Assembly (NCBI GenBank): GCA_037349105.1 | Contig: JAYJMM010000036.1 | Coordinates: forward strand, 1,214,001-1,278,000 | Direction of reading: 5' to 3' | DNA: 64,000 nt | Source of the DNA: Limnomonas spitsbergensis | Lineage: Eukaryota > Chlorophyta > Chlorophyceae > Chlamydomonadales | The notes under the pieces: generated by a model | What the model was told of the DNA's origin: nothing | Seen by the model: only the letters and a program-made list of their open reading frames with translations | The model's database searches: none | Program-made: the position numbers and the translations under genes | Part shown: piece by piece, positions 448 through 46,658 of the stretch | How the letters are laid out: each line of letters starts with the position of its first letter | Numbering within the stretch: the first letter of the stretch is position 1

Positions 448-3400
448 ACCGTACCCTGCGCCGCAGCCTGCTTGAGAGTATGGACATGTACGGCCCGCAC
501 CTGACGACGGCCGTCATCGAGGATCAGATCTACCCTCAGCTGCAGGTATGTGTGTTTGTGTGATAGGGGGTGGGGGGCTGAGGGATCTCCCAGAACGGAG
601 CAAGGGAAAGGGAGGTGGAGCAAGGGGGGGAGGGTCTAACCTTGCCCTGACCCCTCTCCCCCCTCCCTGGACCCACAGACGGACCCGACCTCCCTTCCCC
701 TCCCTGCCCCGCTCACCCCCCTTGACGCAGAGACTAGCATCCCAAATCCTACTATCCCCTCACCCTCTCTTACCTACCCCTGCCTCCTCCCCTACCCTCC
801 TCAACCTGGGCCCGTGAGCTGGATTCGCCCCCTTTGCCCCCCCCCTCCCATCCTCTGTCCACCCCCTTCAGTCCCTCACTACCCTGTCTGTAACGTCCCA
901 GGACTTTGACGTTTAAGGCTGTACAGACGTACATTGATGTACATGCATATAATGGACAGTGTATCGTATCCCTTGGGACATGTTGAGGAGACACTGACAG
1001 CATAGAGCCAGGCGGGGCTCTTTACACTATATAACAAGGGGCAAGGTTTACTTCGGGCTACCTTTTCCTTTGGGGGGGGAGGTAGTTATTTCCATTGGGG
1101 GGGGAGGTAGTTATTTCCTTTGGGGGGGAAGGTAGTTATTTCCTTTGGGGGGGGAAGGTAGTTATTTCCTTTGGGGGGGAAGGTAGTTATTTCCTTTGGG
1201 GGGGGAGGTAGTTATTTCCTTTGGGGGGGGAGGTAGTTATTTCCTTTGGGGGGGGAAGGTAGTTATTTCCTTTGGGGGGGGGAAGGTAGTTATTTCCTTT
1301 GGGGGGGAAGGTAGTTATTTCCTTTGGGGGGGGGAAGGTAGTTATTTCCTTTGGGGGGGGAGGTAGTTATTTCCTTTGGGGGGAAGGTAGTTATTTCCTT
1401 TGGGGGGGGAAGGTAGTTATTTCCTTTGGGGGGGAAGGTAGTTATTTCCTTTGGGGGGGAAGGTAGTTATTTCCTTTGGGTGGGAAGGTAGTTATTTCCT
1501 TTGGGGGGGGAGGTAGTTATTTCCATTGGGGGGGGAGGTAGTTATTTCCTTTGGGGGGGGGAAGGTAGTTATTTCCTTTGGGGGGGAAGGTAGTTATTTC
1601 CTTTGGGGGGGAAGGTAGTTATTTCCATTGGGGGGGGAAGGTAGTTATTTCCTTTGGGGGGGGAGGTAGTTATTTCCTTTGGGGGGGGAAGGTAGTTATT
1701 TCCTTTGGGGGGGGGAGGTAGTTATTTCCATTGGGGGGGGGGAGGTAGTTATTTCCATTGGGGGGGGAAGGTAGTTATTTCCATTGGGGGGGGAAGGTAG
1801 TTATTTCCATTGGGGGGGGGAGGTAGTTATTTCCTTTGGGGGGGGAGGTAGTTATTTCCTTTGGGGGGGAAGGTAGTTATTTCCATTGGGGGGGGGAGGT
1901 AGTTATTTCCATTGGGGGGGAAGGTAGTTATTTCCTTTGGGGGGGAAGGTAGTTATTTCCATTGGGGGGGGAGGTAGTTATTTCCATTGGGGGGGGGAGG
2001 TAGTTATTTCCATTGGGGGGGAAGGTAGTTATTTCCATTGGGGGGGGGAGGTAGTTATTTCCATTGGGGGGGGGAGGTAGTTATTTCCATTGGGGGGGAA
2101 GGTAGTTATTTCCATTGGGGGGGGGAGGTAGTTATTTCCTTTGGGGGGGGAGGTAGTTATTTCCTTTGGGGGGGAAGGTAGTTATTTCCTTTGGGGGGGG
2201 GAGGTAGTTATTTCCATTGGGGGGGGGGAGGTAGTTATTTCCTTTGGGGGGGAAGGTAGTTATTTCCATTGGGGGGGGGAGGTAGTTATTTCCATTGGGG
2301 GGGGGAGGTAGTTATTTCCATTGGGGGGGGAGGTAGTTATTTCCTTTGGGGGGGGAGGTAGTTATTTCCATTGGGGGGGGGAGGTAGTTATTTCCATTGG
2401 GGGGGAAGGTAGTTATTTCCATTGGGGGGGGAGGTAGTTATTTCCATTGGGGGGGGGAGGTAGTTATTTCCATTGGGGGGGGGAGGTAGTTATTTCCATT
2501 GGGGGGGAAGGTAGTTATTTCCATTGTTTTCTTCTCCTTCTTTCCCTATTAACTTAAGTTTCTTTTCTCCGAACGAGACAGTTGGGCGCCCACGCGGCCG
2601 AGCCTTTTTGAGCAGGGCCCAGAGGTGTTATGTCATTGACACTATATAACACATATTATATTCAACCTTATAGCAGACTGAGTGCTACCCTGTTCCCCCC
2701 CCCTGCCCCCCTCACAGTCGGCCCACAGATAGCCTTCACCTCCATTCCCCTCCCCTCTCCTCTTTTGTCCTCCACCACCAAAGACGGACTTCGCCACCCT
2801 CAAACTGTCAAACCTTATCAGGCCCCCTACCCCACCCTCCCCACCTTTCCAACTTCCCCCACCCTCCCAACCCTGACAATGGTCGAAATGAGCGCACTGG
2901 TACAGCATGTTAATGACGTTACACATCCTGGGCCCTGATCAAAAGGCTCAGCCGCGTCCTGCATACTGGTCCAGCATGAGCATGTGACAACAAGCATTTC
3001 CAAATATCTTCCCAACCCCACAGACCTGCTCACCCGTCCCCCATCCCCACCGTCCTCCCCCTCCACACACCCCTGCGCCCACAGACTGGCTTCACGGACG
3101 GCAACGCCTACATCCGCGAGCTCACCCTCAAGTCCATGCTGGCGCTGGCTCCTAAGATGAGCAACAAGACGCTCACGCAGAATGTGCTCAAGCACCTGTC
3201 CAAGCTGCAGGTGATGGCTGGAGGAGGAGGGGCGATTGTGAGTGTGTTGTGCGCTGTTGTAAGGGTTTTGAGGGCACTCTGGCTGTGCTGTGTGCCTGGT
3301 GAAAGCACCCGAGCAGAATGTGCTCAAGCACCTGTCCAAGCTGCAGCTGACAGCAGGGAGGGAGGGTCGAATGTGAGCGTGCTACTTGCTGTTGTAAGGG

Positions 3401-6400
3401 TTGTGCAGACAGTCTGGCTGTGTGCCTGGGGAAGGCACCTGCGTCGAATGAGCTCAAGAACTTCAGAAGAGGTTAAGATTCTGTGAGGGAAGGGTGCGGC
3501 CTTGCGGGCGGGGCCCAGCTCCATGAGTTAAATTTGGGTTCCTTGATCAGGCACCCAGGCTGAATGTGCTCCAGTACTCCAGTCAAGGGTGACAGAAGTG
3601 TCGAGGGGCGACTCTTGAGTGCCACATTTTCAGTAGCATGGGCCTTGATAGCCCCCCTGGCTTTATGTCTTAGGTTTGGGGGGGGGGTCGGTCCCCCCCC
3701 TTCCCCCCTCCCCACCAGGTTGATGAGGAGCCCTCAATCCGTGCCAACACGACGGTCCTGCTGGGCAACCCTGCCCCCTCCACCCTCTTCCCTTCACCCT
3801 TCACACAAGATTGCCCCCCCCCCCCTTGCACCCTCCCTCTTACCCCCGCCCCACCAGGTTGATGAGGAGCCCTCCATCCGTGCCAACACGACGGTCCTGT
3901 TGGGCAATGTGGCCAAGTACCTAGGGGAAGCTACCTGCAAGAGAGTGCTCCTCAACGCCTTTACTCGCGCACTCAAGGACGGATTCCCACCGGCGAGGAT
4001 CGCAGGGCTCAGGGCCATAGTTGCAACAGGTACCCAACTGATTTCTACCCAACCGATTTCCAATCGGTACCCAACTGATATCGACCCAACTGATTTCCAA
4101 CCGGTGCCCAACTGATATCGACCCAACTGATTTTTGCCAAACTGATTTCTTACCGGTACCCAACTGATATCTACCCAACTGATTTCTTACCGGTGCCGTG
4201 AAGTTTGAGGTCCATGAAGGTGGGGTCTTGATTAGGCGGGTCTTAAGGCAGGAATGAATCACAGGTCAAAATTATCCGCTGTGATACGGTCCCGGTGCAT
4301 CCATCCACATGGGGAGGGTCAAGTACCTGCATCCACCCTATCCACTCAAGCTGCAGGCTGGAGAACCCTATTGTGGCCAGCCTTGCTGCCTCCGCCACTA
4401 GTCTTAGGCCGGTCCAGGTTAATTCATATCCAGGCCCTGGGCGGTTGCGAGGCGGCCTGCTGAAGTTCAACTCATAGCCGGGAGGGGGAAATTGATCTCG
4501 ACCCCAAATGAACCCCTCAACCCCAAATCTCCTCTCTTGGCAGAAAGAACGCTGATGTTGTTAAGATTGACATATATCTGGTACTGTTGTACTGCTGAGA
4601 CGCTCTCCTCTCTTGGCCCCTCAGCTAGCCCCACCCCCAGCGTCGTATCACGGAGCCGAGGAAGTTAGACACGTAGCCGGGAGGGGGAAACTGATATCTT
4701 AACCCTGAATGAACCTCTTTGCCCCAAACCTCCTCTCTTGGCCCCTCTGCTTGCCCCACCCTCAGCGTCGTATCACGGAGCCGAGGAAGCCGCGTTGCGT
4801 ATTCTGCCCGCCATCGCCCCCATGTGCATTGACTCTGCGGCAGACGTGCGGTCCTCGGCGTTACAGGTGGGTGCGTCAGGATGCAGGGCTTGCTTAACCC
4901 TATCAGGGTAAACCCTATCAGGGTGCCGGGCTTGCTGAACCCTATCAGGATGCAGGGCCTGCTGAACCCTATCAACCTATCAGGATGCAGGGTCTGCTAA
5001 ACCCTATCAGGGTGCCGGGCTTGCTGAACCCTATCAGGGTACCGGGCCTGCTGAACCCTATCAGGGTGCCGGGCTTGCTGAACCCTATCAGGGTGCCGGG
5101 CTTGCTAAACCCTATCAGGGTGCCAGGCTTGCTAAACCCTATCAGGATGCAGGGCCTGCTGAACCTTATCAGGATGCAGGGCCTGCTGAACCCTGTCAGG
5201 ATGCAGGGCCTGCTGAACCCTATCAGGATGCAGGGCCTGCTGAACCCTATCAGGGTGCAGGGTCTGCTAAAACCTATCAGGATGCAGGGCCTGCTAAACC
5301 CTATCAGGGTGCAGGGCTTGCTGAACCCTATCAGGGTGCCGGGCCTGCTAAACCCTATCAGGGTGCCGGGCTTGCTGAACCCTATCAGGATGCAGGGTCT
5401 GCTGAACCCTATCAGGATGCAGGGTCTGCTGAACCCTATCAGGATGCCGGGCCTGCTGAACCCTTTTAGGATGCAGGGTCTGCTAACCCCTATCAGGATG
5501 CAGGGTCTGCTGAACCCTATCAGGATGCAGGGTCTGCTAAACCCTATCAGGGTGCCGGGCCTGCTAAACCCTATCAGGATGCAGGGTCTGCTAAACCCTA
5601 TCAGGGTGCCGGGCCTGCTGAACCCTATCAGGATGCAGGGTCTGCTAAACCCTATCAGGATGCAGGGTCTGCTTAACCCTATCAGGGTGCCGGGCTTGCT
5701 GAACCCTATCAGGATGCAGGGCCTGCTAAACACCTCAAATCTCCCCCCCCCTCAGTCCCCGACCTCTCCACACCTCCATTCCTTCTCCCCAGGCCCCGAC
5801 CTCAATATCCCTCCACCCTGCCGCACAGACGCACAGCCCTGCCCCCTGACCTACTTACTGACCTGCGATAGCCTCTGTAACACCACCCTCCTGGCCCCTC
5901 CCCCACAGTGTTTTTTGAAGTGGGTACCGGACCACCTTTGATGGGCCGCCCTGCAGCCACCCCTGGGCCGATTGACACCAAACCTGGACTGGCCTCAGGC
6001 TGGAGGCCTTGGCAGCAGGGCTTGCGGAGCCAGGGGCTGGTGGACGTAGGCCACAGTGTAGCTGAAAGTGATGCGGTAACCACTGCAAGAAACAGTGTAG
6101 CTGAAAGTGATGCGGTAACCACTGCAAAAAACAGTGCTCCCCCACTGCACCCCCTCCAGTGCATGGACACGTTCATCAAGGTGCTCCATGACTACGACGT
6201 CAAAGCGACTGCAGCGGCCGTGGCGGAAGTCAGCGGGACTTTGACCACCGGGGGAGCTCCCACGATAGGTGTGTGGGGAGAAGGGAGCGCGGTGTTTATA
6301 TGTTTTGTGATTCAGCTGCATGTCAGCTAGTAGGCCCCATTTGTGGCCAGCCATGCTGCTTTGGCCACCAGTCTTAGGCCGGTCCAGGTTTGTTCCTAAG

Positions 6401-8452
6401 TGGGCCTTTGGCGGCCGCTGGGCGGTCTGCCGAAGGTGGACTCGTGGCCAGAAAACGCGACACTGGTGGAGCGGGGAGGCAGGACAGGGTAAAGGAGGGC
6501 AGGGGCGGGGCAGGGTGTATGAGGGAAGGATGAGGCGCAGATCCTGGCAGGGTGTATGAGGGAAGGATGAGGCGCAGATCCTGTGTTCCTAAATAGTTTG
6601 GCTGGTCGGCACATCTGTTCAACAATGATGTAGGTGTGTGGGGTGGAGCGGGGGAGCAGGGCAGAGTAAAGCAGTGCGGGCCAGGGTCGGGGCGAATGAG
6701 GGAAGGTTGAGGCGCAGCACGTGCCAGGTCCTGTATTGCTAGGCGTGTAGACCGCCCCTGTGCTACGCTCTTGAACATGATGGTAGGAATCCAACATGCA
6801 GGCTTCCACCGCCAGCTCTGGCAATGCTGTGCCCCCTTTGCCTTCGCACCAGGAAGTGGGAAGACTATGCCCCACCGCAGGGGCGTGAGCATGTTGAAAC
6901 TGTAAACCCTTAACCCTGAACTATGCCCCACCGCAGGGGCGTGAGCATGTTGAAACCCTAAACCCTGAACCCTGAACTATGCCCCACTGTTAAGGAAACA
7001 GTGTGTCATGGGCCAAGGCCACGTTCGTGCTGTTACCATCCTTAGGACCAACATAGCTGACGGTCCCTCCCAGGTCCCATGTCCCTCTCTGCTGGTGCTC
7101 TGTCCCTCTGGACTCGTGTTTCTTTGAGCGGAAAACCGCCTAAGGCGACAAACACGGGATATGAATATGTATACAGACTTTCAATCATGTCGCCGAGTCG
7201 AAAAACGTTGCCAACGGGAGAGAGAGGCAAAGATAGAGAAGGGGAGAAAGAGAAGGGGAGACAAAAAGTAAAGAAAGGGGAGGATTGCAGGCAAGGCGGC
7301 AGTTGTGTTATGTCCCCTCTAGGAACCCTGCTCTTGACTTCTGGTGCCCTATCCCTCATGACCTTGGTCCCATGTCCCTCATGACCCCTCCACTTGCTGC
7401 CTAGCATCCCTCCCAAGGCAGCAGTTGTGTTATTTTCCTGCCAGTCATCGTCTGGTTGCTGCCTTGCATCTCCCCCAAGGCGCTGGTCCCCTGTCCCTCA
7501 TGGTCCCCTGTCCCTCATGCCCTTGGTCCCCTGTCCCTCATGACCCCTCCACTTGCTGCCTTGCATCTCCCCCAAGGCGCTGGTCCCCTGTCCCTCATGG
7601 TCCCCTGTCCCTCATGGTCTCCTGTCCCTCATGACCCCTCCACTTGCTGCCTTGCATCTCCCCTAAGGCGCTGGTGGCTCCATGCTGACCTGGGCGGTCT
7701 CAAGCCTGATGGGCTCCACGGGCCTTTCAGCCAAGGCGGTAGCTCCCCCCCTCACCGCCTCAGCTCCGGCCCCGCCGGCCCCAGCAGCAGCAGCAGCAGC
7801 GGTCGGCGGTCCTGCTCCTCCCCCGCGGCACTCAGCGGCCAGCTCTTCGGCGGTGGCTGGCGGTGGGGGGACGCGCGGCGCCGTCTCAGCCGCCCGCGGA
7901 GCCTTGAATATGGCCGGTGGCGGCAGCAGCGGAAGCCTCCGGGCGGCGGCGAGCGACGGATGGGGCGATGACGACGCAGGTGGTTCGGCGAGCGCGGGCG
8001 GGGCGGCCGAAGGCTGGGGTGATGATGACGATGAGTTGGAGGCTTTGCGAGCCAAGGAGGAGTTGGTGGAGGCCAAGGCCAGGAGCAGGCTATCAGCTCG
8101 GCCTTCGGCTGTGTCTGCCCGGCCAGCCAGCGCAGCAGGACCCAAGTCTTCAGCAGCAGCAACAGCAGTAGGGGCAGCAGGGACTTGCGGGGGAGGCGGC
8201 GGAGGAGGCTGGGATGCAGCAGAGCCCGGCGACAGCGATGACAAGTGGGACGATATGGACAGCGAGGGCGGGGCAGCAGTGGCGAAGCAGCCTGTTGTTG
8301 CTGCTGCTGCTCGGCCCCGACCTGCTCGCTCTGGTGCCCCTGTGGAGGGAGGCTCGGGCAGCAGTGCCAAGGCCAAGCCTAGGGCAATGAAGCTTGGGGC
8401 GCAGAAACTGGGCGCACAGAAGTTGGGGGGGCAGAAGCTGGACTTGGATTAG
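448..8452 (+). CDS. SCY1-like (SCYL1-type) pseudokinase protein, C-terminal exons
   Basis: Six exons with matching phases: 448-545, 3085-3210, 3858-4029, 4766-4866, 6160-6268 and 7668-8452 (stop TAG at 8450). The 5' end, with the pseudokinase domain, lies before the window. The joined protein reads as the HEAT-repeat region of SCY1-like proteins: LLESMDMYGPHLTTAVIEDQ, YIRELTLKSMLALAPKM, EEPSIRANTTVLLGNVAKYL, then FTRALKDGFPPARIAGLRA. These follow the human SCYL1 pattern (REQTVKSMLLLAPK; IRCNTTVCLGKI). The last exon starts with a TWAVSSL motif, then an Ala/Pro-rich linker, acidic Trp motifs (WGDDD, KWDDMD) and repeated QKL ending in KLDLD. That tail resembles the COPI-binding end of animal SCYL1 but lacks its basic pair. 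SCYL1 is known as a catalytically inactive Golgi/COPI trafficking factor; that role here is inference. Introns 1, 3 and 4 hold minisatellites, and several junctions have decoy copies. Confidence 0.86.
1049..2526. repeat. G-run minisatellite, unit about 28-31 bp, about 50 copies
   Basis: The unit is a run of 6-10 G followed by aggtagttatttcc and a TTT or ATT variant. It lies wholly inside SCYL1 intron 1. Length variation is almost entirely in the G run. Two subtypes (tcctttgg and tccattgg) are intermixed, with the ATT type enriched toward the right. The G runs could form G-quadruplexes in the transcript, since the gene is also on the + strand (inference). Confidence 0.95.
2577..2640 (-). mobile_element. 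SINE-like family copy in SCYL1 intron 1
   Basis: Carries the core gttgggcgcccacgcggccg, agcctttttgagcaggg and gtgttatgtcattgac. Orientation is given relative to the copy at 26263. It sits directly after the G-run minisatellite. A rougher copy in the other orientation is at 2905-2962. Confidence 0.7.
3211..3600 (+). repeat. decayed tandem copies of SCYL1 exon 2 end and donor
   Basis: The end of the exon at 3177-3210 reappears nearly intact at about 3316-3350 (gcagaatgtgctcaagcacc is shared), but there it is followed by CTGAC, so the donor GT is lost. Weaker copies occur near 3440-3470 and 3560-3585. Each copy brings the same downstream intron sequence (tgctgttgtaagggttgtg-like). Confidence 0.85.
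3700..3770 (+). repeat. upstream copy of SCYL1 exon 3 acceptor and exon start
   Basis: The segment ccaccaggttgatgaggagc and about 45 further bases of exon 3 occur twice, at about 3713-3768 and 3852-3905. Only the second copy continues into the full exon (3858-4029). The first breaks off into intron-like C-rich sequence after codons for LLGN, so it is an acceptor decoy. Confidence 0.9.
4022..4200 (+). repeat. minisatellite starting at SCYL1 exon 3 donor
   Basis: Units built from ggtacccaactgatatcgac and acccaactgatttcttaccg repeat four to five times, beginning at the donor GT (4030). The splice-site bases ggtaccc are part of the repeated unit. Confidence 0.85.
4365..4465 (+). mobile_element. 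fragment of the MITE-like family core
   Basis: Shares the ccagccttgctgcc, ttaggccggtccaggtt and gcggcctgctgaag blocks with 6340-6440 and with the interiors of the complete copies at 30718 and 33039. No terminal inverted repeats are visible. Confidence 0.5.
4469..4790 (+). repeat. tandem copies of intron end plus SCYL1 exon 4 acceptor
   Basis: A unit beginning tagccgggagggggaaa and running through tcctctcttggcccct into cagcgtcgtatcacggagcc occurs as a complete copy (about 4672-4790, carrying the true acceptor at 4765). One truncated copy ends near 4663, where the exon-like sequence stops after gaggaag, and a partial first copy lies near 4469-4545. Confidence 0.85.
4879..5735. repeat. 27-bp minisatellite, about 31 copies, in SCYL1 intron 4
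   Basis: The unit is gaaccctatcaggatgcagg plus gcctgct, with variants ggtgccggg and gatgcaggg. It begins about 12 bases after the exon 4 donor. The 27-bp period keeps both strands open (the 253- and 318-residue open frames here), which is a by-product of period and not coding evidence. Confidence 0.95.
5904..6150 (+). mobile_element. MITE-like element with terminal inverted repeats, in SCYL1 intron 4
   Basis: The left end is agtgttttttgaagtgggta followed by ccggaccacctttg. The right end holds two copies of gtgatgcggtaaccactgca and ends in aaaaaacagtg, the inverted counterpart. The interior shares the gccttggcagcaggg and ggctggaggcc blocks with the elements at 30718 and 33039. The right end lies directly before the exon 5 acceptor (6159). 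Confidence 0.7.
6335..6440 (+). mobile_element. fragment of the MITE-like family core
   Basis: Contains gtggccagccatgctgcttt, ttaggccggtccaggttt and a ggcggccgctgggcggtctg tail, like 4365-4465. It sits in the last SCYL1 intron. The following 6455-6735 stretch has an imperfect tandem of cagggtgtatgagggaagga that I cannot assign further. Confidence 0.5.
7330..7667 (+). repeat. tandem copies of the acceptor region of the last SCYL1 exon
   Basis: A unit of roughly 70-100 bases (cacttgctgccttgcatctc, ccccaaggcgctggt, ctgtccctcatg repeats) occurs about four times. The final copy supplies the true acceptor ctaag at 7667 and runs into the exon as gcgctggtggctcc. Earlier copies carry the same caaggcgctggt junction at about 7475-7487 and 7570-7583 but continue as ctgtccctcatg. 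Confidence 0.85.
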
Positions 8453-8454: not shown

Positions 8455-8600
8455 GTGAAGAAGCAGCCTGCTGCTGTTGCTCAAGCCCGACCTGTCCGCT
8501 CCGTCGCCGCTGCGGCTGGTGGCCTAAAGAAGCGGAGCCTCGGCCAAGCCTAGGGCGCAGAAACTTCGGAAGTTGGGGGCTCAGACACTTGACTTGTAGA
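8455..8600 (+). pseudogene. decayed tandem copy of the SCYL1 coding 3' end
   Basis: Immediately after the stop codon the sequence again shows agcagcctgctgctgttgct, cgacctgtccgctc, ccaagcctagggcgcagaaa and cacttgacttgtag. These are a diverged copy of 8285-8452 including a second stop codon. It is out of frame with the gene. Confidence 0.8.
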
Positions 8601-9360
8601 AGTGGTAGTATATTACATGAGGTGGGTACGCTTTGTGAAGTCTGAACAGTCTAGAAGCATGACGCAGCTAGATTGTTAATGGAGACAATGAGTGATGCAT
8701 CGATTACCGTACATGCTATACCGGTGGACGGTAGTCAGTATAATTGAAATGGAGTGTACAAATATTGTGTCTTGCGGAGCATCACTTTTCATGTATGATG
8801 AAGGTTAATGACGTCACACTTATGAAAGTGTGTTGGACGCCGACGCGGCCGAGACTTTGCAGCATGGCCCAGTGGTGTGACGTCATTGATTTACAAAATT
8901 TTGGAGTTTTTACAGTCCAACAGAGCATTACATTTGATGCATGGGACATAAAGGTACAGGCACTTGATACACTAGGACAGGAAGCGAAAACCAGTGACCC
9001 CCCTGGGCAAGCAACTAGCACACAGCCACAAGACAGTGGCGTGGGAATGAACCCCATGTGAGTCACCCTTTAGTTAGGCGCCCACGCGGCCGAGCCTCTT
9101 TGAGGAGGGCTCAGAGGTGTAACGTCGTTGACTTGTGGGTCACGCGCAGGAGGGCTTGGCCGCGTGGCCGTCCAACTGCCTGGTTGGAAATTAAAAAGAA
9201 GACTATATTGAAACAGAGGGAGGGAAAGAAGACAACAGAACCAAAAAGTGTGGCATAATTGTTTGCCACCTAGGCCGAAAACCCTCAAAAAGTCCGCCCA
9301 CCAGGCCACCACGCTTCAAATGCATGGAGCAGGTTTCTCCTAAATGCTACTGGCACCTGT

Positions 9361-10212: not shown

Positions 10213-10344
10213 GTCACACTTCTGGGCCCCGCTCTTCAAGCTCGGTCGCATAGGAGCTCAACTGTCACGCAAGAAGAAAGGGAAGATGGGGCTGAAAATG
10301 ATGAGGTTGAGATTACGGTACCCTGTTCCTACTGGAACGTGTTG

Positions 10345-11280: not shown

Positions 11281-14200
11281 TTACAGCCCAGGCAAGCTGT
11301 TGACGTTGCCGACAGCGAGGCCTGTCGTCAACAGGCCAAACACGAGGAAGGGCTGCGCAGCCGCCTGGTACTTGACGTCGTTGGCAATGGGGTCCGGGAT
11401 GAAGAACCTGACAAGCAGTGGTTTTCAGAATCTCAGTCGTGGCAGAATCTTTAAAATCTCAGTCGTGGTAGAATATTAAAAATGGCAGTCGTGGCAGAAT
11501 GAGCGAAATTATAAGAAATAAGACATGCATAAAAGCAGTGTCAGGAGAGCGAGAGTCCCAGCCGTATGCCAAACAAGACGTGGGTTCAGGATTCACATGA
11601 TGCAGCGAGTTCCTTTTCTTTTCTCCCAACGGAACAGTTGGGCGCCCACATGGCCGAGCCTTTTTGAGCAGGGCCCAGAGGTGTTATGTCATTGACATTA
11701 TGCAATAAGGGTCTAGGTGAACCCTTATTTTTAATTGTAAATGCTCCTGTGGTTATTTTACAACGGTTCCTTTTCGACCGTACACAATATCATGAAATGG
11801 GTGTGAGTTTTGTTAAGCCGCCCAACTCGCAAACATCCCTTAACCCCGTACTCAGGCAGAGCGAGCGCAATCTTGAGCTCAGGGGCACCATGTCAAGACT
11901 CAGAGGCCATGGGGGTCAGCGAGCCAGGTAGAGGCCCGTCACTCACGTTGAAACCTAAAACCTAAACCCTAAGCCCTTTACCCTAAACTAGGGCCCATGG
12001 GAGGCAGCAAGCCAGGCAAAGGCCCGTCACTCACGTTCAAACCTCAACCTTAAGCCCTAAGGCCTAAGGCCTAAACCCTAGTCTAGGGCCCATGGGAGGC
12101 AGCGAGCCAGGTAAAGGCACGCCACTCACGTTTAAATCTAAACCTTCAGCCCTAAGCCCTAAGGCAAAACCCTAAACCTGGGCCCATGGGAGGCAGCAAG
12201 CCAGGCAAAGGCACGTCTCTTACTTGAACTGAAAGAAGATCTGAGGCAGGATGAGTCCGAGGAGCACGGCGGCATATGTGTACTGGTGCAGGCCAGCGGC
12301 AAGGTAACCTGAAGCCATGACAGGCAGGGGATGGGCAGGTGGTGGGCAGGTGGTGGGCGGGTGGTGGGCAGGTGGTGGGCAGGAGGTGGGCAGGTGGTGG
12401 GCAGCAGGTGGTGGTTTGAGGGAGTGGTAGCATCAAAAATAATGAATAAACTACGCCGGCAGGGGTGTGAGAGTTGAGGAAACAGCACAGCATGGGCCGA
12501 GGCCTCGTCCGCGCCGTTACCATTGGCAGCATCAGATACAGATAACCAGCAGGCAGGCGGTGGACACTTTTAGGGTTTCTCTCTAAACGTTTAAGGAGTT
12601 TTAGGGCCAGACCACTTCAAAGTTAAGGGCTGAAGGGCTCAGCTTAGGGCTCAGTTTAGGGCTCAGTTTAGGGCTCAGCAGCATCAGATACAGCAGACAG
12701 GCGGTGGACAGGAAGACATCCGAGCGACAGATGCGAAGGACGTTCTTTCCTCCCAACCCTCTAGTTAGGCACCCACGCAGCCGAGCCTTTTTGAGCAGGG
12801 CCCAGAGGTGTAACCTCATTGACATCCGAGGGACAGATGTGAAGGACTGATGTCCAGCAGGCATACGCTAGCAGGCAGCCAATGCGCGGCTGTAAACAGA
12901 GTAGAATTCGCTCAATATTAATTATTTTGGCCTGCGCGGCTAATATTAATTCAAAAATCGCCGCTGCGAGGAGTGTCAGTCAGGTGCACGGAGAAATTGA
13001 AGAGGTGCACGCTGGGAATAAAAACAGCAAATATCAGAAAGACGCGCGCTTCCGCGCGACGGTTCGATTTGGCATCCGTTCATTGATCCTTGTCAAGTCT
13101 GATCGAGTACTCCAGCATAGCACTACTGGTGACTCAGATGAGCACTAGCGGTAGGAAGGGAGGAGGCAGAGGCTGCTGAACGTGAGAATGCCAGGGCGAG
13201 GGCGGCAGCAGTGACGAAGAGGCCGGTTGTACGCCCCAGATCCATGCTTACCGTCGTAGCACGGTTTTGACCAAGTTTTACTGCACTGGCTGCTGCGCGG
13301 ACGGAAATTAATCATATCGTGACTGATTTGCGTTGGTAAGTTAGATAACCTGGAATTATGCCTGCTATATAAATACATAAAAACACCGGCTCCCCTGGCC
13401 CACCTGCCACACCCAGCTGTGTTACATCGATGGCCCCGACGCAAATCCACTTTGCCGTGTCGACACCAAAAGCGACGGGCAGTGACTGTAGCCCCATCTC
13501 CCTGAGAATGATGTTTCAAGGGTCCAGGGTTCAGGGTTTGGACATTGCAGCACGATTGCCCTTGTATGGGAGTGACAAGGGATTAGAGTTCAGGGTAAGG
13601 CACCTGCAGCAGCACCGCCCTGGTAAGAGAGGGTTTAGGGTTTAGGGTTGTACGTCAAGCCACGGCCACAACATCTCCCTTAAAAGGACGTCTCGAGGGT
13701 AAAGGCCTCAGCGACTACAGCACTGCGGCCCCGAGAAGGTCCCCACCCCCACCAGTCCCCCGCTTACCCCCTTGCTGTCCCCACCCCTACCTGCCCAACA
13801 CAGTTCCCCCTCTGCTGTTGTCACCCCCACCTGCCCCTGCTCGCCCCTGTCTCCCTCAATGCTCTTAAAATCGTTCACGATCCACCCCTACCCACACCTG
13901 TCTCCTTCAATGCTCCTGACCAGCCCCCCCCCTCCTGCCCCCATCCCCTCCTGTCCCCCCCATCCCCTCAGTTCTCCTGATGTGCCCCCTGCCCGCTTCC
14001 TGCACCCCCACCTGTTCCCTCAATGCTACTGATATCCCATCCCCCCCTGGCCCCTCACCTGTCACCCTCAATGCTCTTGAAGTCATTCACGATGGCAATG
14101 CCCAGCCCCGCAAAGGAGTACAGCACGGTCAGGACCATGACATCCGCGCTAAGCTCACCAAACAGTGCCTGATGGCGGCAGGGGGGGAGGGAGAGAGGGA

Positions 14201-17200
14201 GGGAGGGAGGGGATTGGCTTGGGGGGGCTATGCCCAGACCCGCAATGAGATGCATCACAACCAGGACCATCACGTCCACGCTGATCTCAATAAACGGTGT
14301 CTGATGACGGCAGGGAGGGAGGGAGTGTTTAAGGGATAGGGGAGGGGATCGGCTTGAAGTGGTATGTATGCCCAGACCCGCAATGAAATGCTGCACAACC
14401 AGGACCATCACGTCCATACTCAGCACACCAAACAGTGCTGGAAGGGGGAAGGGGTGGGGAGAGGGGGAAGGGGGGGGGAGAGGGGGAAGGGGGGGGGAGA
14501 GGGGGAAGGGGGGGGAAGAGGGGGAAGGGGGGGGGAGAGGGGGAAGGGGGGGGGAGAGGGGGAAGGGGGGGGGAGAGGGGGAAGGGGGGGGGAGAGGGGG
14601 AAGGGGGGGGAGAGGGGGAAGGGGGGGGAGAGGGGGAAGGGGGGGGAGAGGGGGAAGGGGGGGGGAGAGGGGGAAGGGGGGGGGAGAGGGGGAAGGGGGG
14701 GGGAGAGGGGGAAGGGGGGGGGAGAGGGGGAAGGGGGGGGAAGAGGGGGAAGGGGGGGGGAGAGGGGGAAGGGGGGGGGAGAGGGGGAAGGGGGGGGGAG
14801 AGGGGGAAGGGGGGGGGAGAGGGGGAAGGGGGGGGAGAGGGGGAAGGGGGGGGAGAGGGGGAAGGGGGGGGAGAGGGGGAAGGGGGGGGGAGAGGGGAAG
14901 GGGGGGGAGAGGGGGAAGGGGGGGGGAGAGGGGGAAGGGGGGGGGGAGAGGGAGAAGGGGGGGGGGAGAGGGGAAAGGGGGGGGGGGAGAGGGGAAAGGG
15001 GGGGGGGGGAGAGGGGGAAGGGGGGGGGGAGAGGGAGGGAATGGGGTAGGTGATGGGTTGGATAGTAGGGATTTAGGGATGAAGAAAGGGCGAGGGTCGG
15101 TGAAAGGGCGAACGTACGTGAAGGGGCGAGGTAGAAGTGGGGGTACGTTGCGATTGGCCGGTGCTAGTGGGAGGGGTGGGGGGGGACAGGGTTAAAGAAT
15201 AAGCCTTCCGTGGCGGTTTGGGGGGGGAGGTGACGGGGCTGAAGGTGTGCGTGTGAAGGTGGCCCAGATTCAAACACACAGATCCAGATCCAAATCTAAA
15301 GCTCACACTTGACCCTTGAACCAGGGTAGTGATATGCAGGACGAGACCAGTGTGCAGCTCCCAGCCCAGCCTCCAAAGTTGATTCCAACATCCAGATCCA
15401 TGCACACAGTTCCAGATCCATGCACACAGTTCCAAATCCATGCACACAGATCCAGATCCATGCACACAGATCCAGATCCAACCCTCTGACCTGACCCGCC
15501 TACCAGGGCCGCACAATGTAGGACAAGCCGAGCGCAAAATTTCCGGCCCAGCCCCACAAATAAATTCCAACATCCAGATCCAGATACATGCACACAGATC
15601 CAGATCCAGATCCAACCCTCTCACCTGACCCGCCCACCACGGCAGCGCAATGTAGGACGAGCCGAGCGCAAAGTTACCAGCCCAGCCCCATTGCTTTAGC
15701 TTCAGTGGCGGGGCTGAGTAGATATAGGAGATGATGGAGCCAAAAATGGCCAGGTAGAGCAGTGTCGGCTGCAGGGAGACAGACGGTGGGGGGACTATTT
15801 TGAACGTGGGGCACATGAGGGGTGACAGGGACAAGGAGTGACATGCAGTTCTGTACAATTGCGCCGTAATTGAGAAACCGTGCAAGTAATTACGGCCCCT
15901 CGCGGGCAAAAGAAGCTGCATTTCAGAATTTGCCTTGTTACGGTGAAATAACGGACAAAATTACGACGAAATTACCTTATTACAAAATTACAGTGGGAAA
16001 TTACGATAAATACGGGAAATTACGGGAAATTACGATAAATTACGGTGACAAGAATTCAGGTATGCACTCCAGCTACGGTAAGGCCCGTATAATCGGCACA
16101 GCACTGGCGACAAGCTCATCATGATCATAAGGAGAGCCGAGTTGCACACATTTCACATGTGTAATAACAAAGACGGTTTGTGTGCGACTTCCTGACGACG
16201 GCAACTTCCCATAGAGGCGCTCTATTATGAGAGGAAGCAGTATATGCTGGAAGATCAGAAGAACCAAAAGGGGTTTCAGGATCTACAGGACCCCCCCCCC
16301 CCCCCCCTCCAACCCCTACCTGCCTGCTGCTGTCCTCCTCTCCCCCCCTGCCCCCCCCTCCCCCCTCATCTAGCGTCCCCCTCTCCCCCCCTGCCCCCTC
16401 CCCGGGCTTCCGCCTCTCCCCCCTAGCTCCCCCTGCCCCCCCTCCCAAGAGCTCCTGCCTCTACAGGACTTCTGCTCGCCCCACCTGCTCATGGCCGGCC
16501 CAGTTGTCGAGCAAGAAGGCAGTACCGAGGCCGGCACCCAGCAGTACAAAGATCTGCGTGACGACCTCCTCCTTTGAGATCTTGCCTAGGTGGGTGGGAA
16601 CAGAGGCAGGAGAGATGGAGAGGAGGGAGAGGCAGAGGAGAAATCAAGAGGAGGGATGAAGAGGAGGGAGGGGCAGAGGAGGGAGATAAGGAGGGAGGTG
16701 GGAGATACTGAGGCAGGGGAGGGCCAGCACACACACACGCCCACCTAGTCTCCCTCATACGATCCAAACCCCATTTCGATCGCACCCTACCCAGTAAGCC
16801 ACCCACCCTGGATGATCCCCAGACAGGCCGGTCCTGAGGGCGTTGGCGCGGCAACTAGGCTAGGGACACAGACACACACATTCCACCCTAAACCCTAAAC
16901 TAAACACACAGACACACGCATTTTGTGCTCGGCAACTGGACTAGACACACAGGGTGCCACCCGAACTGGATGATCCCCAGCCAGCTTGGACCCAAGGGGA
17001 TTGCGCGGCAACTGGACTAGAAACACACGTGCCACCAAGACTAGAGGATTCCCAGCCAGCCAGTGCGGTCCTGAGGGGACTGCGTGGCAACTGGACTGGA
17101 CACACAACCACACGCACTTCCCTAAACCCTAGACACACAGACACACGCATCACCCTAAACCCTTGACACACAAACACACGCATCGCCCTAAACCCTTGAC

Positions 17201-30300: not shown

Positions 30301-31197
30301 GGCATGCCTTGATTGGCCAGTGTCTATCTGTGTGTCTGTGTCCACTAGTAGCACCCACCTTATTCCTCAGGTAAGCCAGGGAGAACTCAGCCTGCTCATA
30401 TTTGGAAGCTCCGTAATGGTCAGAGCAGACGGCAATGAATGCCGTGCATCGCTCGAGGGCATCTTGTGAGACTTGGACCCAGTCAACCTCACCCTGCATT
30501 ATTGGGTAAGTAGCACGGGATCAAAGCTACGCCCTGTGGGGGGCGTAAGAGTCAAGGAAACAGCGCAGCCTGGGCCGAAGCCACATCCGCTCCGTAACTG
30601 TTATCGCGCGGGATCATGCATAACGCACAGGATGATGCACAACGCGAAATCGCCAGAAGAGGGTGAGGGATAGAAAGCAAAGATACATCTGGTGGACAAG
30701 CCCTTGGACCCAGTCAACAGTGTTTTTTGCAGTGGTTACCGCACCACTTTCAGCTACATTTCAGCTACACTGAGGCCTACCGCTATCCCCCCCACCAGCC
30801 CCTGGCTTGGCCAGCCCTGCTGCCAAGGCCTCTGGCCGGAGGCCGGTCCATGTTTGGTGTCAATCAGCCCATCAAAGGTGGTCCGGTAACCACTAAAAAA
30901 AACTGCCAGTCAGCCTCACCCAGTATTGGGTAGGTAGCACAATTGCACGGTCACGAAATATGAACACATGAAGGATTTAATTTAATTCATGGCGGCATGA
31001 AAACAAACAAACTCATAATGCATATTACAGCACAAGCTGTCTCTTGACAAGAGTACTAACGCACCGGTAGGACTTCTTCGCCGAAAAAAACAGACCAGCC
31101 ATCCTGCACCAATGCCTCGTACAGCTTGTTTGCAAGGCCGTCCCCATAGCGACCCGTGTCACCTGAGTGGTACGAAATCATGATGTCCCAATGCGGC
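27302..31197 (-). CDS. TIR domain plus armadillo-repeat protein
   Basis: Exons 31065-31197, 30359-30493, 29548-29676, 29044-29145 and 27302-28564 (stop TAA at 27302) join in frame to at least 586 residues. The acceptor of the last exon is the least certain. The first four exons form a TIR fold: WDIMISYHSGDTGRYGDGLA (strand A and box 1), LYEALVQDGWSVFFGEEVLP, DALERCTAFIAVCSDHYGAS, SKYEQAEFSLAYLRNK with a Glu where TIR NADases carry the catalytic one, then VLIPLSYSGEYPPPSLEPLM. The last exon holds about nine 42-residue ARM repeats (PGAITQLVVLL, VQENAVGALCNLA). TIR domains act as NAD-consuming enzymes or adaptors in immunity and cell death; ARM repeats bind proteins. The pairing recalls animal SARM1, but with the opposite order and no SAM domains. 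Enzymatic activity is inference. Upstream exons may exist. Confidence 0.87.
29994..30087 (+). mobile_element. dispersed repeat with AAAG run and aaggaaacagc core
   Basis: Starts with (agaa)n agctacgcccc and continues gttaaggaaacagcatagcc, gggccgaagccacatccgcg, ccgttacca. Copies on the + strand are near 6985-7040, 12455-12525, 18690-18765 and 30526-30601. Inverted copies are near 22665-22715, 27190-27284 and 36470-36520. It usually lies inside introns or next to genes. Class unknown; short interspersed element is the best guess. Confidence 0.65.
30494..30940 (-). repeat. duplicated acceptor region of TIR exon 2, split by a MITE
   Basis: The true acceptor context (ttggacccagtcaacctcac, then cattattgggtaagtagcac) spans 30473-30515 on the + strand. 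A second copy starts at 30703 (cttggacccagtcaac) and resumes at 30908 (ccagtcagcctcacccagta, ttgggtaggtagcac), interrupted by the MITE-like element at 30718-30905. Confidence 0.85.
30718..30905 (+). mobile_element. MITE-like element with about 30-bp inverted ends and about 9-bp target duplication
   Basis: The left end gtgttttttgcagtggttac is complementary to the right end ggtaaccactaaaaaaaact. The flanks ccagtcaac and ccagtcagc fit a 9-bp target duplication with one mismatch, as seen for Mutator-like elements. The insertion splits the duplicated TIR acceptor copy. No transposase is encoded. Confidence 0.75.
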
Positions 31198-33030: not shown

Positions 33031-33038
33031 CATGGTGC

Positions 33039-34428: not shown

Positions 34429-37389
34429 CTATCTGATATTGCCATTCATTCCGAAGGGGAAGAAGCCGCCCCAGGTGGTGCCCCCCAGGTACACGATAGA
34501 CAACACTTGTGCAGGGGTGCGTGCAAAAGGCAGCGCATTGGCGGTGGCAGGCACAAGGACATTCGCCTTGGTCGTGGGGTTGATGATGCCCATGTCGTCA
34601 GCCGCGCCGGAAGCGAGGGCCCGCAGGTCAGAGATGGCCTGAACAATCGTCGTAACGTTGACACCTGCAAACGATTGCCACGCACAGGTAGGCGGCTGGG
34701 TTAGAACCTGATACATTTGCAGGTCGAAGGAAGCAGCGTGGCCATGGCCTCAGGCCACGCCGCACTGTGGTTTAGGGTTTAGGGTTTTAGGTTTGAGGGG
34801 TTAAGGGTTTAAGGTAGTTTCCTGAACTCTCACTGCGGGGCGTAATGTTCTCTCTTTCTTTGCAGACCTATGTCTAACTTAACCCTCGACATACCAACAG
34901 GCATTTTTTGCCGTGCAGCCGCCAAAAGGCCGACAGGGAACACCACCTTAACCAGCCCACCACCATTGGCCCAAGAATGAGAGCTGGATGCACCAGGCCT
35001 GCCCGGCCGTACGCCGTGATGTTGCTTAATTTTAGCTGAATCGCGTTAAATAAATGATGTTGCACGCCCAACATGTGGTATTGCACACGAAGTACAGGAG
35101 GTCATGTCAGCTCATGATCATCACATCCCATTCCCTGTTCCAATCATCCTGTCCCCTCATCCAATCATGTCCCCTCTTCTTCTCTCGTCCCCTGTTCGTC
35201 ATCTCGATCCCATCCCTTTTGTTGAAGACACAGATTATTCATTGCATTTGCTTGTAGCAGGAACAGTCCCCAGGAGGTCACGTGTCAAGAGATAGAGCCT
35301 TGTCAAGCAAGGCTCAGAGGTGTAACGCTATGAGGCGTAACATCATAGGGGTGTAACTCCACAAGGTGTGACGTCATGGAGGTGTAACGTCACAAGGTGT
35401 AACGTCATGAAGGTGGAACGCCATAGACATGTCAGGAGATAAGCCCCCCTGACGTGATGTTCCACACCCCTCCTACTAGTTGCTGGACGTCTTCTGAAGA
35501 TCCCACACACTTTTAAGTCGCTCTATTCCCCTTATACCTATCGAGCTTGCCCACGCGGCTGAGCCTTTCTGAGCAGGGCCCAGAGGTGTGTGTAACGTCA
35601 TTGACTGATCGAGTTTGCCCACACGGCCGAGCCTTTTAAGCAGGGCCCAGAGGTGTAACGTCATTGACTGATCGAGCTTGCCCACCAGCTCACCATACGG
35701 ATGGACAAAGTGGGAGCCTATTTCGATGAGCGTGGTGCGAATGGCGCCAGCGTGGTAGGCCTCAGTCCCGAGCAGCCCGGAGGTGGCCGACAGGTAGGGG
35801 GCAGAGACAACGCTGATGGCACCCTGGAGGCGATGAGAAAATAATGCATGTTTGAGCGGAGTTGTCAGCTAGGCATGGAAGTGAGGAACTGCAACGCATC
35901 CCAGGTGCCTCCGTGTGTACCTGTGTTCCTGTGCCACAGTCTGCATGCGCTTTTATGACCAGCAATTAGAGGCTAGGCCCGTCCTGGCTGTGGGCAGCTT
36001 CTAGAACCTGCGCTGTGATGAGGCTGCAATCTGCTGCTCACCCTGGAAGCGATGATGTCAACTAGGCGTGGAAGTGAGGACCAGCAACTCATTCCAGATT
36101 TCCAGGTGCCGCTATGCAAGAACCGAAGAGCGTGTATTCAAGCCACTGTCTGACGCTGCAGCCTGCTGCTCAGTGCTCACCTGGTATGCAGTCACGCCCA
36201 CGTCCTCGAAGATGTAGGCAGCATGGTAGAAGAGGACGTCGTCGCCGTACCTGCAGGACAGGCCCAAGCAATCGATGATGTGGAAATTGAACAACAGGAT
36301 TGGCAGTTTACTGGGTCGTGGCTCATCAGGAAATCCTGGAGGTGCTCAGTCTGGATTTCCACTCGTTCAAATGCTATCCTAAATCCAGTAAGGTCGAAAG
36401 CTATGTGATATGTACGGATGACCTCTTTGTTGTGTTGAAGAGGTTTAGGTTGCTCACTTCGGCCCATAATGCGCTATTCCGTAACTCTCACGCCCCCCGC
36501 GGGGCGTAGCTTTTTTCCCTCCCTAGGCGGCTCACCCAGTGAAAGTGGTGGGCAGGAGAACCCTGAAGGCCGCATTGGCTGCAGTGCCAAAGGCCCTGCC
36601 AATATTAAGCGCAGGCTGGTCAACGGGTGTTGCGCCGGCTGCCACGAGCGCAGCTCGCAGGAACTTGACGTGGGCCAGCTCATCCTCGTAAATATCCATG
36701 GCCAGTGCTTGAGCAGAGGGTGACAGCAGGGCCTTCTTGCAACCAGTGGGGGCGACACCATTAGTGCCCCACAGGCTGGATTCAATAGGCTGGCCGGTGG
36801 CGGCGCAGCTGTAGAAGTTGGCCTCAAGGTACCTGCAGGGAGGGTGATTCATACATGCGCGTTATTACGGTGACTGATCTTGCTGTCCTCCAAACATTCT
36901 CAACCCTGAAGGGACACGACGTTGATCCCTGAAGACCAGGCTTCCTTATTGCGAGCATTATTACCTCCAGCCCATGCAGTAGTTTGTCTGATGTTAGATA
37001 GCGTACCAGTTCAGTCAGTTGGACTGCATACCGTATGTGATCAATGCAAGGGCTGTTGAGGGCCACGGCTGCAACAATCCACTGGTGTTGCAGCAACACC
37101 AGAGTTTATTTCAGTGCCCATCAGACCTCCTTTGGTGAGCTGCTAGGCAGCTAACAATTTGCTGATGGGCGGGACTAAATTAACGTGGCTGGACCGGCCA
37201 AATCAGCAGGCACCTTGCTGTCAGGGTACCTGACTCAGGTACCCCTATGTGGCTCTGTTATGCATCTGAATTGTACATTTGCAGCACCTGCTGTACTCAC
37301 TCGAGGTTAAGGGCGAATTGGAGCACGTCGGCATCTGTCACAGCTTGGACGATGCTCACACCCATCAGGGCCACTAGGCAGAAAAGGGC
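34429..37389 (-). CDS. desiccation-related PCC13-62-like (ferritin-like domain) protein, paralogue B
   Basis: Exons 37301-37389, 36536-36832, 36181-36250, 35694-35823 and 34429-34664 (stop TAG), 273 residues as seen. Exons 2, 3 and 4 have exactly the same lengths as in paralogue A (297, 70 and 130 bases). Motifs: signal-like ALFCLVALMGVSIVQA, YLEANFYSCAA, DELAHVKFLRAAL, YIFEDVGVTAY, LGTEAYHAGAIRTTL, TPAQVLSIVYLGG and GGFFPFGMNGNIR. This keeps both ExxH pairs of a ferritin-like bundle. There is no in-frame ATG in the first listed exon (a stop lies upstream in frame), so an unseen 5' exon spliced at 37390 is needed. Likely secreted or endomembrane; stress role by family only. Confidence 0.91.
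34765..34820. repeat. interstitial telomere-like tract
   Basis: ggtttagggtttagggtttt and following ttaagggtttaagg. Similar tracts occur at 13625-13650, 16890-16905, 24525-24550 and 17790-18000. Confidence 0.75.
35550..35693 (-). mobile_element. tandem pair of SINE-like cores next to gene B exon 4 donor
   Basis: Two cores (35553-35605 and 35616-35670) are each bounded by gatcgagcttgccca-type sequence that also abuts the exon 4 donor at 35693. This suggests that one insertion near the donor was then tandemly duplicated together with its flank. Confidence 0.65.
35824..36180 (-). repeat. gene B intron 3 partly duplicated including the exon 4 acceptor
   Basis: The segment caccctggaggcgatga, then ctaggcatggaagtgaggaa and tcccaggtgcc (35820-35912) returns as caccctggaagcgatgatgt, ctaggcgtggaagtgaggac and ttccaggtgcc (36040-36108). 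Both copies end near a ctgctgctcac donor-side block (36030-36042 and 36165-36180). Confidence 0.8.
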
Positions 37390-41599: not shown

Positions 41600-41690
41600 T
41601 GCATGGCTAACTCCTGCATGGCCAAACCCTGCATGGCCAACCCCTGCATGGCCAATCCCTGCATGGCCAACCCCTGCCCTCTCTTGTGAC
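41600..41690. repeat. 15-16-bp tandem repeat
   Basis: gcatggccaacccctgcatg repeated about five times with single-base variants. Confidence 0.9.
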
Positions 41691-41754
41691 AAAACAAACA
41701 AACCGGACCCACAGCCCGACCCAAGCCTCTGCTTACATGCGCATATGTGAGTGT

Positions 41755-43854: not shown

Positions 43855-44000
43855 TATAGATAAAGTGTATCATTAACCCGCGGGTAAACCGTACCGATCA
43901 CTCCCTCAGATTAAGGGCCAAGGGTTAAGGGTTAAGAAACCCTAAATCTGAAGGAGTGATTGGTACGTCTAACCCACGAGTTAACGATACACTATCTATA
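43855..44000. repeat. long imperfect inverted repeat (foldback)
   Basis: The left arm 43855-43912 starts tatagataaagtgtatcatt and ends cactccctcagatt. The right arm 43945-44000 is its imperfect reverse complement, ending gatacactatctata. The loop of about 32 bases holds aagggttaagggttaagaaa, a telomere-like tract. It could be a MITE or foldback element. Confidence 0.85.
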
Positions 44001-44261
44001 CCAAAACTCACATGAAACTTTATTCAGTTGCTACCATCTGAAGACTATGCCCTACAGCATCAAAACTATACCAATGACCATATGAAAGGTACCATACTGT
44101 ACTTTTGCTTTGCCTCCCCTCATAGTCAACATTGTTTGAGGTTGAGGGATCCATGAATTGTACCCCATCATGAGGGGGGGCTGTAGATAATTATGCGCCC
44201 CATCAATCCACCATCCTTACGTATTAGAATCCGCCACACGATCATCTCTCCCCCCCCCCCG

Positions 44262-44395
44262 CCTAGAACGCCGGGTTTCATGTTCCTGCCCCCTCACATG
44301 GGAGGATGGCATGGCTGCACCATGGCCCAGGCTCTGCATGGTAGTCGGAATTGAGCCTAATCATTCCCTACCAGCCCCACGCGGCCGAGCAACAA
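44262..44395 (-). mobile_element. inverted copy of the B-box-containing repeat
   Basis: catgttcctgccccctcaca, catggctgcaccatggccca and ccctaccagccccacgcggc are the reverse complement of blocks at 9361-9510. The B-box end appears truncated. Confidence 0.5.
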
Positions 44396-45972: not shown

Positions 45973-46658
45973 TTACTTGACATTTCCGTTCATGCCCATA
46001 GGGAAGAAGCCTCCCTTGCCCGAGCCCCCTAGATACACAATGGCCAACACTTGAGCAGGGGTGCGTGAGAAGGGCAGCGCGTCAGCCGTGGCAGGCACCA
46101 GGATGTTTGCCTTGGTCGTGGGGTTGATGATCCCCATGTCATCAGCCGCACCAGAAACAGCGGCACGCAAGTTGGAGATGGCCTGAACAATTGTGGACAC
46201 GGGGACACCTGCGGGCAGCCAGGCAATATAGCGAGCAGCTTTGAGAATACAGACTGGCATACACCAATCCAACATGGTGGGAAAGGTACTTACATGATGA
46301 ATATACATTTTCGGAAGGCTTGGGTGGGATGCTGTTTTTGTGAAAGACGTGGATATTGTTGAGGCCTGGGACTTCCTTTACCTTTCTTTTCCAGACTTTT
46401 ATCTGCCCCTTCACTTTATTCCCCCCTTCTCCATTTTCCCTGCCCCTATCAGGCAGTTAGGCGCCTTCACGGGCGAGCCTCTTGGAGCTGAGCCCAGAGG
46501 TGTAACGTCATTGACTTTCTTGGCATGTACTGCATTGCAGGCTGGGCTGTTTATAGAGTTATATGCGTGCCACCACCACCACCTAGCCAGCTAGCTGGCA
46601 CATTTGGCACAACAGTGACCTCAGTACTCACCGTAGGGGAAGACGAACTCAGAGGCCA
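45973..46658 (-). CDS. desiccation-related PCC13-62-like protein, paralogue C, 3' part; exon 4 interrupted by satellite
   Basis: The last exon is 45973-46208 (stop TAA), the same length as in paralogue B (236 bases). It reads VSTIVQAISNLRAAVSG, DDMGIINPTTKANILVPATA, TPAQVLAIVYLGG, GGFFPMGMNGNVK. The upstream exon end is at 46632, where MASEFVFPY plus a split Gly codon and a GTGAGT donor match the ends of exon 4 in paralogues A (EYIFPY) and B (HFVHPY). Only about nine codons of exon 4 are recognisable; from 46659 the sequence becomes the 36-bp array. The part of exon 4 that should encode the second ExxH (TEAYHAG) and exons 1-3 are absent from the window. Either the array lies within the exon, or a new acceptor (ctctgag before TTCGTC) makes the array intronic, or the gene is broken. 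Confidence 0.83.

Follow-up and report, generated by a model that had tools for sequence, protein, structure and literature searches.

The 64,000-nucleotide stretch of the green alga Limnomonas spitsbergensis analysed here (contig positions 1214001-1278000 of JAYJMM010000036.1, hereafter the window; the genome comprises 260 Mb in 124 contigs) carries, within its introns, local copies of the neighbouring exon-intron junctions, each consisting of an exon end with its donor or of an acceptor with an exon start. These junction copies in adjoining introns are real. They probably reflect dense and roughly uniform tandem duplication of non-exonic DNA, combined with selection that keeps the gene-side copy.

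Exons were modelled for six genes of the window, namely a SCYL1-like gene, chlG, a TIR-ARM gene and ferritin-like genes A, B and C, which together provide 60 junctions. A Pfam scan of four of the proteins agrees with the gene names (HEAT, UbiA, TIR_2 plus Arm, and Ferritin_2); the name SCYL1 is the label of an earlier note on this DNA, and its support here is limited to the HEAT repeats. Among the best 120 of 2958 matches, the chlG protein is 79-81% identical to homologues in Sanguina aurantia, Chlamydomonas sp. UWO 241, Gonium and Haematococcus, and 85% identical to a metagenome protein; the host is therefore a chlorophycean green alga.

Each junction was assessed by its best two-sided ungapped match 12-600 bases away, using a loose rule (at least 4 points per side and 14 overall, scored +1/-1), a middle rule (7 per side, 18 overall) and a strict rule (6 per side, 20 overall, mismatch -3). 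A second sample was drawn from a Pfam kinesin search of the genome, which listed 139 exon matches. The regions were picked on match strength and exon number, irrespective of copies, and comprised 20 gene regions, two further sets of 2, and one 3-kb locus (L026); another 3-kb locus (L036) was dropped, its translation not being kinesin. Junctions in these loci were predicted from sequence alone, by reading frame, phase and splice matrices that had been trained on window sites (27 donors and 28 acceptors). Together, the window and the kinesin loci give a final sample of 204 junctions, with 62 introns no shorter than 150 bases. Some results refer to a first enlarged sample of 89 donors and 86 acceptors, with 39 copies by the loose rule (38 without an ARM repeat, see below), and the simulation and unit-length comparison to an intermediate sample of 194 junctions.

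The loose ungapped rule is passed by 14 of the 60 window junctions, or 13 after exclusion of the exon 5 donor of the TIR-ARM gene (TIR-ARM 5D), which was discarded as a junction copy when its match turned out to be an ARM repeat inside the exon. Gapped alignment adds three junctions, picked by eye among the 46 that fail the ungapped rule, with scores above the best of 300 shuffles (49 versus 17 for SCYL1-like 2D, 25 versus 17 for TIR-ARM 2A and 20 versus 15 for chlG 9D). Thus, a copy of the exon edge and its splice site is found in the adjoining intron at 16 of the 60 window junctions (13 ungapped and 3 gapped): 5 of 11 in the SCYL1-like gene, 8 of 18 in chlG, 1 of 10 in ferritin-like A, 1 of 10 in TIR-ARM, 1 of 9 in ferritin-like B and 0 of 2 in ferritin-like C. 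In the pooled sample, 52, 32 and 25 of the 204 junctions are duplicated by the loose, middle and strict rules, respectively. When the loose rule is applied to unrelated places of the concatenated sample, matches occur at no more than 0.57% of junctions; for intron positions the maximum is 0.84%. Donors and acceptors are affected alike (21 of 89 and 18 of 86, loose rule, first enlarged sample), and 38 of the 39 copies in that sample lie on the intron side, the exception being the ARM repeat. The median length of the junction-spanning units is 124 bases.

The earlier note had reported at least twelve such junctions, donors as well as acceptors, in almost every gene. The number and the involvement of both kinds of splice site are confirmed, and five of the six genes are indeed affected, but 13 of the 16 junctions belong to two genes, and ferritin-like C is unconfirmed at its two modelled junctions. 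The copies in the window are given below, the real segment being that on the gene side.

3313..3381, plus strand: SCYL1-like gene, decayed copy of exon end and donor (real 3177-3246, exon end 3210); GT reads CT; gapped score 49 versus 17 (best of 300 shuffles); part of an array at 3177-3422 with a period of 135.
3693..3768, plus strand: SCYL1-like gene, acceptor and the first 50 exon bases (real 3832-3907, exon start 3858); AG kept; identity 0.96 in the exon part, 0.85 in the intron part.
4095..4133, plus strand: SCYL1-like gene, 9 exon bases, donor and intron start (real 4021-4059, exon end 4029); within arrays at 4024-4197.
4605..4664, plus strand: SCYL1-like gene, acceptor and 24 exon bases (real 4730-4789, exon start 4766); AG kept; identity 1.00 in the exon part, 0.92 in the intron part.
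7524..7584, plus strand: SCYL1-like gene, acceptor and 8 exon bases (real 7615-7675, exon start 7668); array 7456-7675 with two more copies.
8473..8603, plus strand: SCYL1-like gene, decayed copy of the 3' end of the coding region (real 8303-8423), situated past the stop codon (8452); gapped score 43 versus 19 (best of 200 shuffles).
20268..20293, minus strand: chlG, acceptor and 15 exon bases (real 20155-20180); exon and intron parts both identical.
18288..18348, minus strand: chlG, 53 exon bases and donor (real 18426-18486); GT kept; exon identity 0.87.
16342..16394, minus strand: chlG 5D, weak copy at the exon 5 donor with 4 exon bases; GG replaces GT; intron identity 0.61.
15467..15556, minus strand: chlG, 66 exon bases and donor (real 15601-15690); GT kept; identity 0.88 and 0.96; one more copy (count 2).
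14226..14336, minus strand: chlG, acceptor and 75 exon bases (real 14094-14204); AG kept; identity 0.73 and 0.81; one more copy (count 2); arrays 14094-14438 and 14098-14485.
13891..13919, minus strand: chlG, 22 exon bases and donor (real 14052-14080); identity 0.86 and 0.86.
13672..13711, minus strand: chlG, acceptor and 7 exon bases (real 13495-13534).
12011..12063, minus strand: chlG 9D, copy extending to the exon 9 donor (real about 12200-12247, exon end 12224); gapped score 20 versus 15; array 11907-12217.
22705..22843, minus strand: ferritin-like A, 34 exon bases, donor and intron (real 22925-23063, exon end 23030); a minisatellite with 4 copies beside the real one, the best of which keeps GT (identity 0.79 and 0.84); array 22700-23056.
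30906..30940, minus strand: TIR-ARM 2A, acceptor and exon start (real 30479-30516); gapped score 25 versus 17.
36039..36055, minus strand: ferritin-like B, acceptor and merely 4 exon bases (real 35820-35836).

The TIR-ARM acceptor decoy (30706-30940) seems to be split by an insertion, as 30721-30871 matches a dispersed element of locus L059 at 86%; if so, the duplication predates the insertion. By eye, an element resembling this insertion is also present near 33060-33250.

Tandem duplication in these introns extends well beyond the junctions. Local tandem repeats cover 40-53% of intron positions, depending on the rule, while exon interiors are covered to 4-7% in the kinesin loci and to 24-33% in the window, the latter value being put down mainly to ARM repeats. 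Since about half of the intron sequence is local tandem repeat, no junction-specific process is needed for most of the copies. The claim of nucleation at the junctions of almost every gene is overstated. Ancestral tandem-duplicated sites make up 12-19% of the window introns versus 3-6% of intergenic DNA (17 kb in five stretches: 8600-11150, 20800-22250, 25400-27200, 31350-34300 and 37600-45850); the intergenic fraction in these five pieces is thus roughly one third of that in introns.

The comparison of junctions with deeper intron positions, which the earlier note had itself put forward as the test of its claim, depends on the choice of background. Raw position coverage (46% of intron positions versus 13% of junctions, middle rule), which would imply depletion at junctions, was rejected because multi-copy arrays are counted repeatedly. 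Two weightings by ancestral sites were likewise replaced: the version that kept the copies from junction events (22 of 175 junctions versus 14.1% of intron sites) was biased, and the version that removed them (ratios of 1.16 to 1.59) was biased in the opposite direction. Their place was taken by a canonical profile, in which each junction event is assigned to the real junction and interior arrays are weighted by 1/copy number, and by a paired test of junction ends against sites at least 40 bases deep in the same introns. By the middle rule, coverage in the profile is 0.185 at the junction, 0.162 at 1-15 bases, 0.162 at 15-40, 0.149 at 40-80, 0.112 at 80-160 and 0.119 beyond 160. It declines smoothly from the junction without a sharp peak, such that tandem density is modestly higher towards the intron ends (0.16 at 15-40 bases versus 0.12 past 160), with overlapping intervals. 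Over the 62 introns, the paired ratio is 1.69 (1.30-2.15), 1.55 (1.04-2.13) and 1.88 (1.19-2.78) by the loose, middle and strict rules, with Wilcoxon p values of 0.007, 0.19 and 0.12. The proposed test thus yields a modest excess at junctions (1.55-1.88 times deep intron) whose significance depends on the rule. The suggested link between splice sites and duplication is supported only in part, as most of the copies can be explained without any junction-specific process.

This excess speaks for an alternative that we consider possible but rather doubtful, namely that junctions, or exon edges generally, are mutational hotspots at which duplications start about twice as often, on top of the general process. 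A number of results favour it or weigh against roughly uniform duplication as a full account. In the kinesin loci alone the paired ratio rises to 2.20 (1.59-3.05), 2.01 (1.17-3.20) and 2.14 (1.14-3.75). The excess sits in long units, as the frequency at junctions relative to the interior is 2.0-2.7 for units of at least 80 bases (194 junctions) and 0.3-0.4 for those below 40 bases. Neutral evolution was simulated with three unit-length classes placed uniformly, rejection of exon-internal events, conservation of exons and splice consensus, and substitutions and small indels; the simulated introns were analysed with the same code, and the rates were tuned to the observed interior fractions. Simulated junction hits number 27.8 (17-39), 19.0 (10-27) and 11.8 (6-18) by the three rules, as opposed to 48, 28 and 22 observed among 194 junctions, and units of at least 80 bases number 15.6, 11.1 and 7.1 at simulated junctions and 34, 20 and 15 at real ones; the simulated ratio for long units is about 1.2-1.4. 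Addition of 9% inserted young DNA yields simulated ratios of 1.13, 1.03 and 1.01, the observed values being reached in 0, 1 and 0 of 36 runs; with 23%, the ratios are 1.20, 1.10 and 1.09, and the observed values are reached in 0, 3 and 3 of 44 runs. Moreover, bases 15-80 from a junction are covered 1.32, 1.32 and 1.24 times as densely as deeper bases, versus 0.63-0.69 in the simulation. Early simulations that applied a single copy-number law to all unit lengths (ratios of about 0.5-1.0) were set aside, long units having few copies here.

Coding ends that lack splice sites also bear on this question. The copy of the SCYL1-like 3' coding end indicates that the copy pattern is not specific to splice sites, although its aligned part stops about 29 bases before the stop codon and the ungapped rule misses it. 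No copy was seen at any of the four remaining stop codons, nor at either of the two start codons checked. The resulting counts (1 of 5 stop codons and 0 of 2 start codons) tell against a uniform process, but 1 of 5 is compatible with the rate at junctions, in a sample too small to decide.

Other observations argue against hotspots at junctions. In the window alone, the paired ratio is 1.21 (0.77-1.69), 1.09 (0.56-1.57) and 1.50 (0.64-2.65), all intervals including 1. A bootstrap over loci places 0.2% of values at or below the neutral ratio by the loose rule, but 7.6% and 9.3% by the middle and strict rules, which are hence borderline. The coverage profile has no sharp peak at the junction, donors and acceptors behave alike, and junctions are spread almost uniformly along the length of the copies (Kolmogorov-Smirnov p = 0.05). 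Site age and dilution by repeats are modelled only in part. In this regard, sequence that recurs at other loci of the small sample makes up at least 6.1% of all intron bases, versus 2.5% of those no more than 80 bases from a junction. Seven random 400-base chunks of deep intron were also chosen, of which five were queried, the remaining two both lying in window arrays: one consisted wholly and one partly of a high-copy element, two matched mainly their own tandem neighbourhood, and one had just one match elsewhere, a weak one. Dilution of deep introns by dispersed repeats and further young DNA may explain part of the near-junction excess. Overall, this excess is modest. It amounts to about 1.3-1.9 times what the neutral model predicts, is clear with the loose rule and borderline with the middle and strict rules, and could change with the ages, insertion rate and homogeneity that are assumed. 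Were exon-intron edges genuine hotspots, which seems to us rather unlikely on the present evidence, duplications of at least 80 bases would be initiated at these edges at about twice the rate of the remaining intron, decaying decoys would be present at a sixth to a quarter of all junctions, and introns would grow from their ends.

The second component of the favoured explanation, selection on the gene-side copy, concerns the asymmetry between the copies. The reading frames of the window gene models are open without the copies, and, judged solely by this open frame, the gene-side splice site appears to be the one in use. The statement that only the gene-proximal copy remains intact is accordingly valid for the reading frame; it does not extend to the splice dinucleotides, since GT or AG is still present in 31 of 38 copies, a count favoured by the matching rule. 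The decoys decay neutrally. Exon and copy mismatch at 36 of 357 first, 40 of 355 second and 73 of 349 third codon positions (10.1, 11.3 and 20.9%; p = 1e-5), a pattern that fits a copy drifting freely, and hence equally at all positions, together with an exon that drifts at synonymous sites only and so roughly doubles the differences at position 3. Purifying selection alone would suffice to keep the gene-side copy intact and is presumably the cause of the asymmetry.

The extra copies might instead owe their retention to selection, perhaps as reserve or regulatory splice sites, and the 31 copies with GT or AG, as well as 10 of 38 that match or exceed the splice score of their own real site, could be cited in favour of this. 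We consider it very unlikely, given that the exon copies differ as expected for free drift, that the matching rule favours the GT/AG count, and that mean splice scores are lower in the copies than in the real sites (3.2 versus 8.8 bits for 20 donors, 5.2 versus 7.4 bits for 18 acceptors). Nor do the unit lengths exhibit a clear frame preference (16, 10 and 12 of 38 with remainders 0, 1 and 2 modulo 3). The 38 include one copy, L046.3D, that collapses on re-extension.

An artefact of chance similarity to the splice consensus, low-complexity DNA or assembly error, for which the abundance of simple tracts and giant arrays in the introns might speak, is refuted at the false-positive rates given above and is highly improbable in view of the many point differences between copies, unlike a simple assembly duplication, and the recurrence of the pattern on many contigs.

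The favoured explanation, uniform duplication with selection for the gene-side copy, would operate as follows. Small tandem duplications would arise at a high rate throughout non-exonic DNA, most visibly in introns. Where a unit crosses a junction, the gene-side splice site would stay in use, such that the exon and the protein are unchanged and the extra copy turns into intron, whereas units wholly within an exon would alter the protein and be mostly removed by selection. Purifying selection would then preserve the copy on the gene side and leave the others to drift, with some arrays expanding into minisatellites. Fill-in of staggered breaks followed by end joining would suffice as the mechanism of duplication and is our candidate for it. 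The proposal of the earlier note that the process supplies decoy splice sites and intron growth is supported at the level of sequence.

Related phenomena have been described in other organisms. In Chlamydomonas and Volvox, the density of tandem repeats with units of 1-50 bases is highest in introns, with a U-shaped increase towards the intron ends that is most pronounced in these two algae (PMC3887541). As in these two green algae, direct repeats are concentrated in introns here and are denser near the intron ends; the near-junction excess agrees with this published enrichment, which is a further point in favour of hotspots. Our analysis differs in that it concerns copies that contain the junction, with a median unit of 124 bases, while the relevant passages of that work cover units of 1-50 bases and do not pose this question. 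In the RdRp gene of potato, a tandem duplication across an intron-exon boundary carried the acceptor and signals into the extra copy, and a second duplication occurred within an intron (PMC4974935). Duplication likewise crosses the boundary here, at 16 of 60 window junctions and 52 of 204 overall (loose rule). In potato, however, a new spliced intron and exon resulted, whereas the extra copy here appears to be absorbed into the old intron, where it decays. In mammalian cells, small tandem duplications are formed from double-strand breaks by fill-in synthesis of 3' overhangs and subsequent end joining (PMC8355091). This route is a general source of small tandem duplications; it was demonstrated in mammalian cells and is only a candidate for this alga. 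No publication that counts junction-spanning decoys was found among the titles and abstract beginnings of the matches listed, most subscription journals being outside the scope of the search.

Several other repeats were observed in the window. One intron of chlG contains a short element, about 75-80 bases long (18682-18759), of which the genome has at least 40 other copies at 81-96% identity, among 2001 candidate places. By eye, a motif of about 60 bases (GGCGCCCACGCGGCCGAGCC...CCCAGAGGTGTAACGTCATTGAC) recurs across the window in both orientations (e.g., 2581-2640, 12770-12830, 26620-26690 and 41450-41515) and is probably a small dispersed element. A 36-base satellite fills 46660-64000, beginning within a remnant of ferritin-like C exon 5 (28 coding bases, 46632-46659), and the gene looks as if it had been cut by this satellite. 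The satellite is still present at contig positions 1290000-1290600 (self-match of 98% at 36 bases) but no longer at 1310000, where a different tandem repeat starts; if continuous, the array measures at least about 30 kb. Finally, telomeric heptamers of the TTTAGGG type occur at 5.6 times the second-order expectation in 49 kb of introns (361 versus 64 expected) and at 2.4 times the expectation in the 17 kb of window intergenic DNA, and the window exons (6.1 kb) contain none. Within introns, their density is about four times higher where tandem repeats cover the sequence (239 of 17254 versus 83 of 23201 positions). The notion that they serve as telomeric filler between copies is unsupported, as they are located within the copies (157 of 9585) and hardly in the spacers (7 of 3856).

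Whatever the cause of the excess near junctions, 12-25% of the sampled junctions (25 to 52 of 204, depending on the rule) carry local self-copies. A practical consequence is that, in genomes of this kind, gene predictors and spliced aligners can pick the wrong copy. The junction copies also constitute a large natural collection of decoy splice sites, with known origin and a gradation of ages, which could reveal how the spliceosome chooses among near-identical sites and how introns lengthen.

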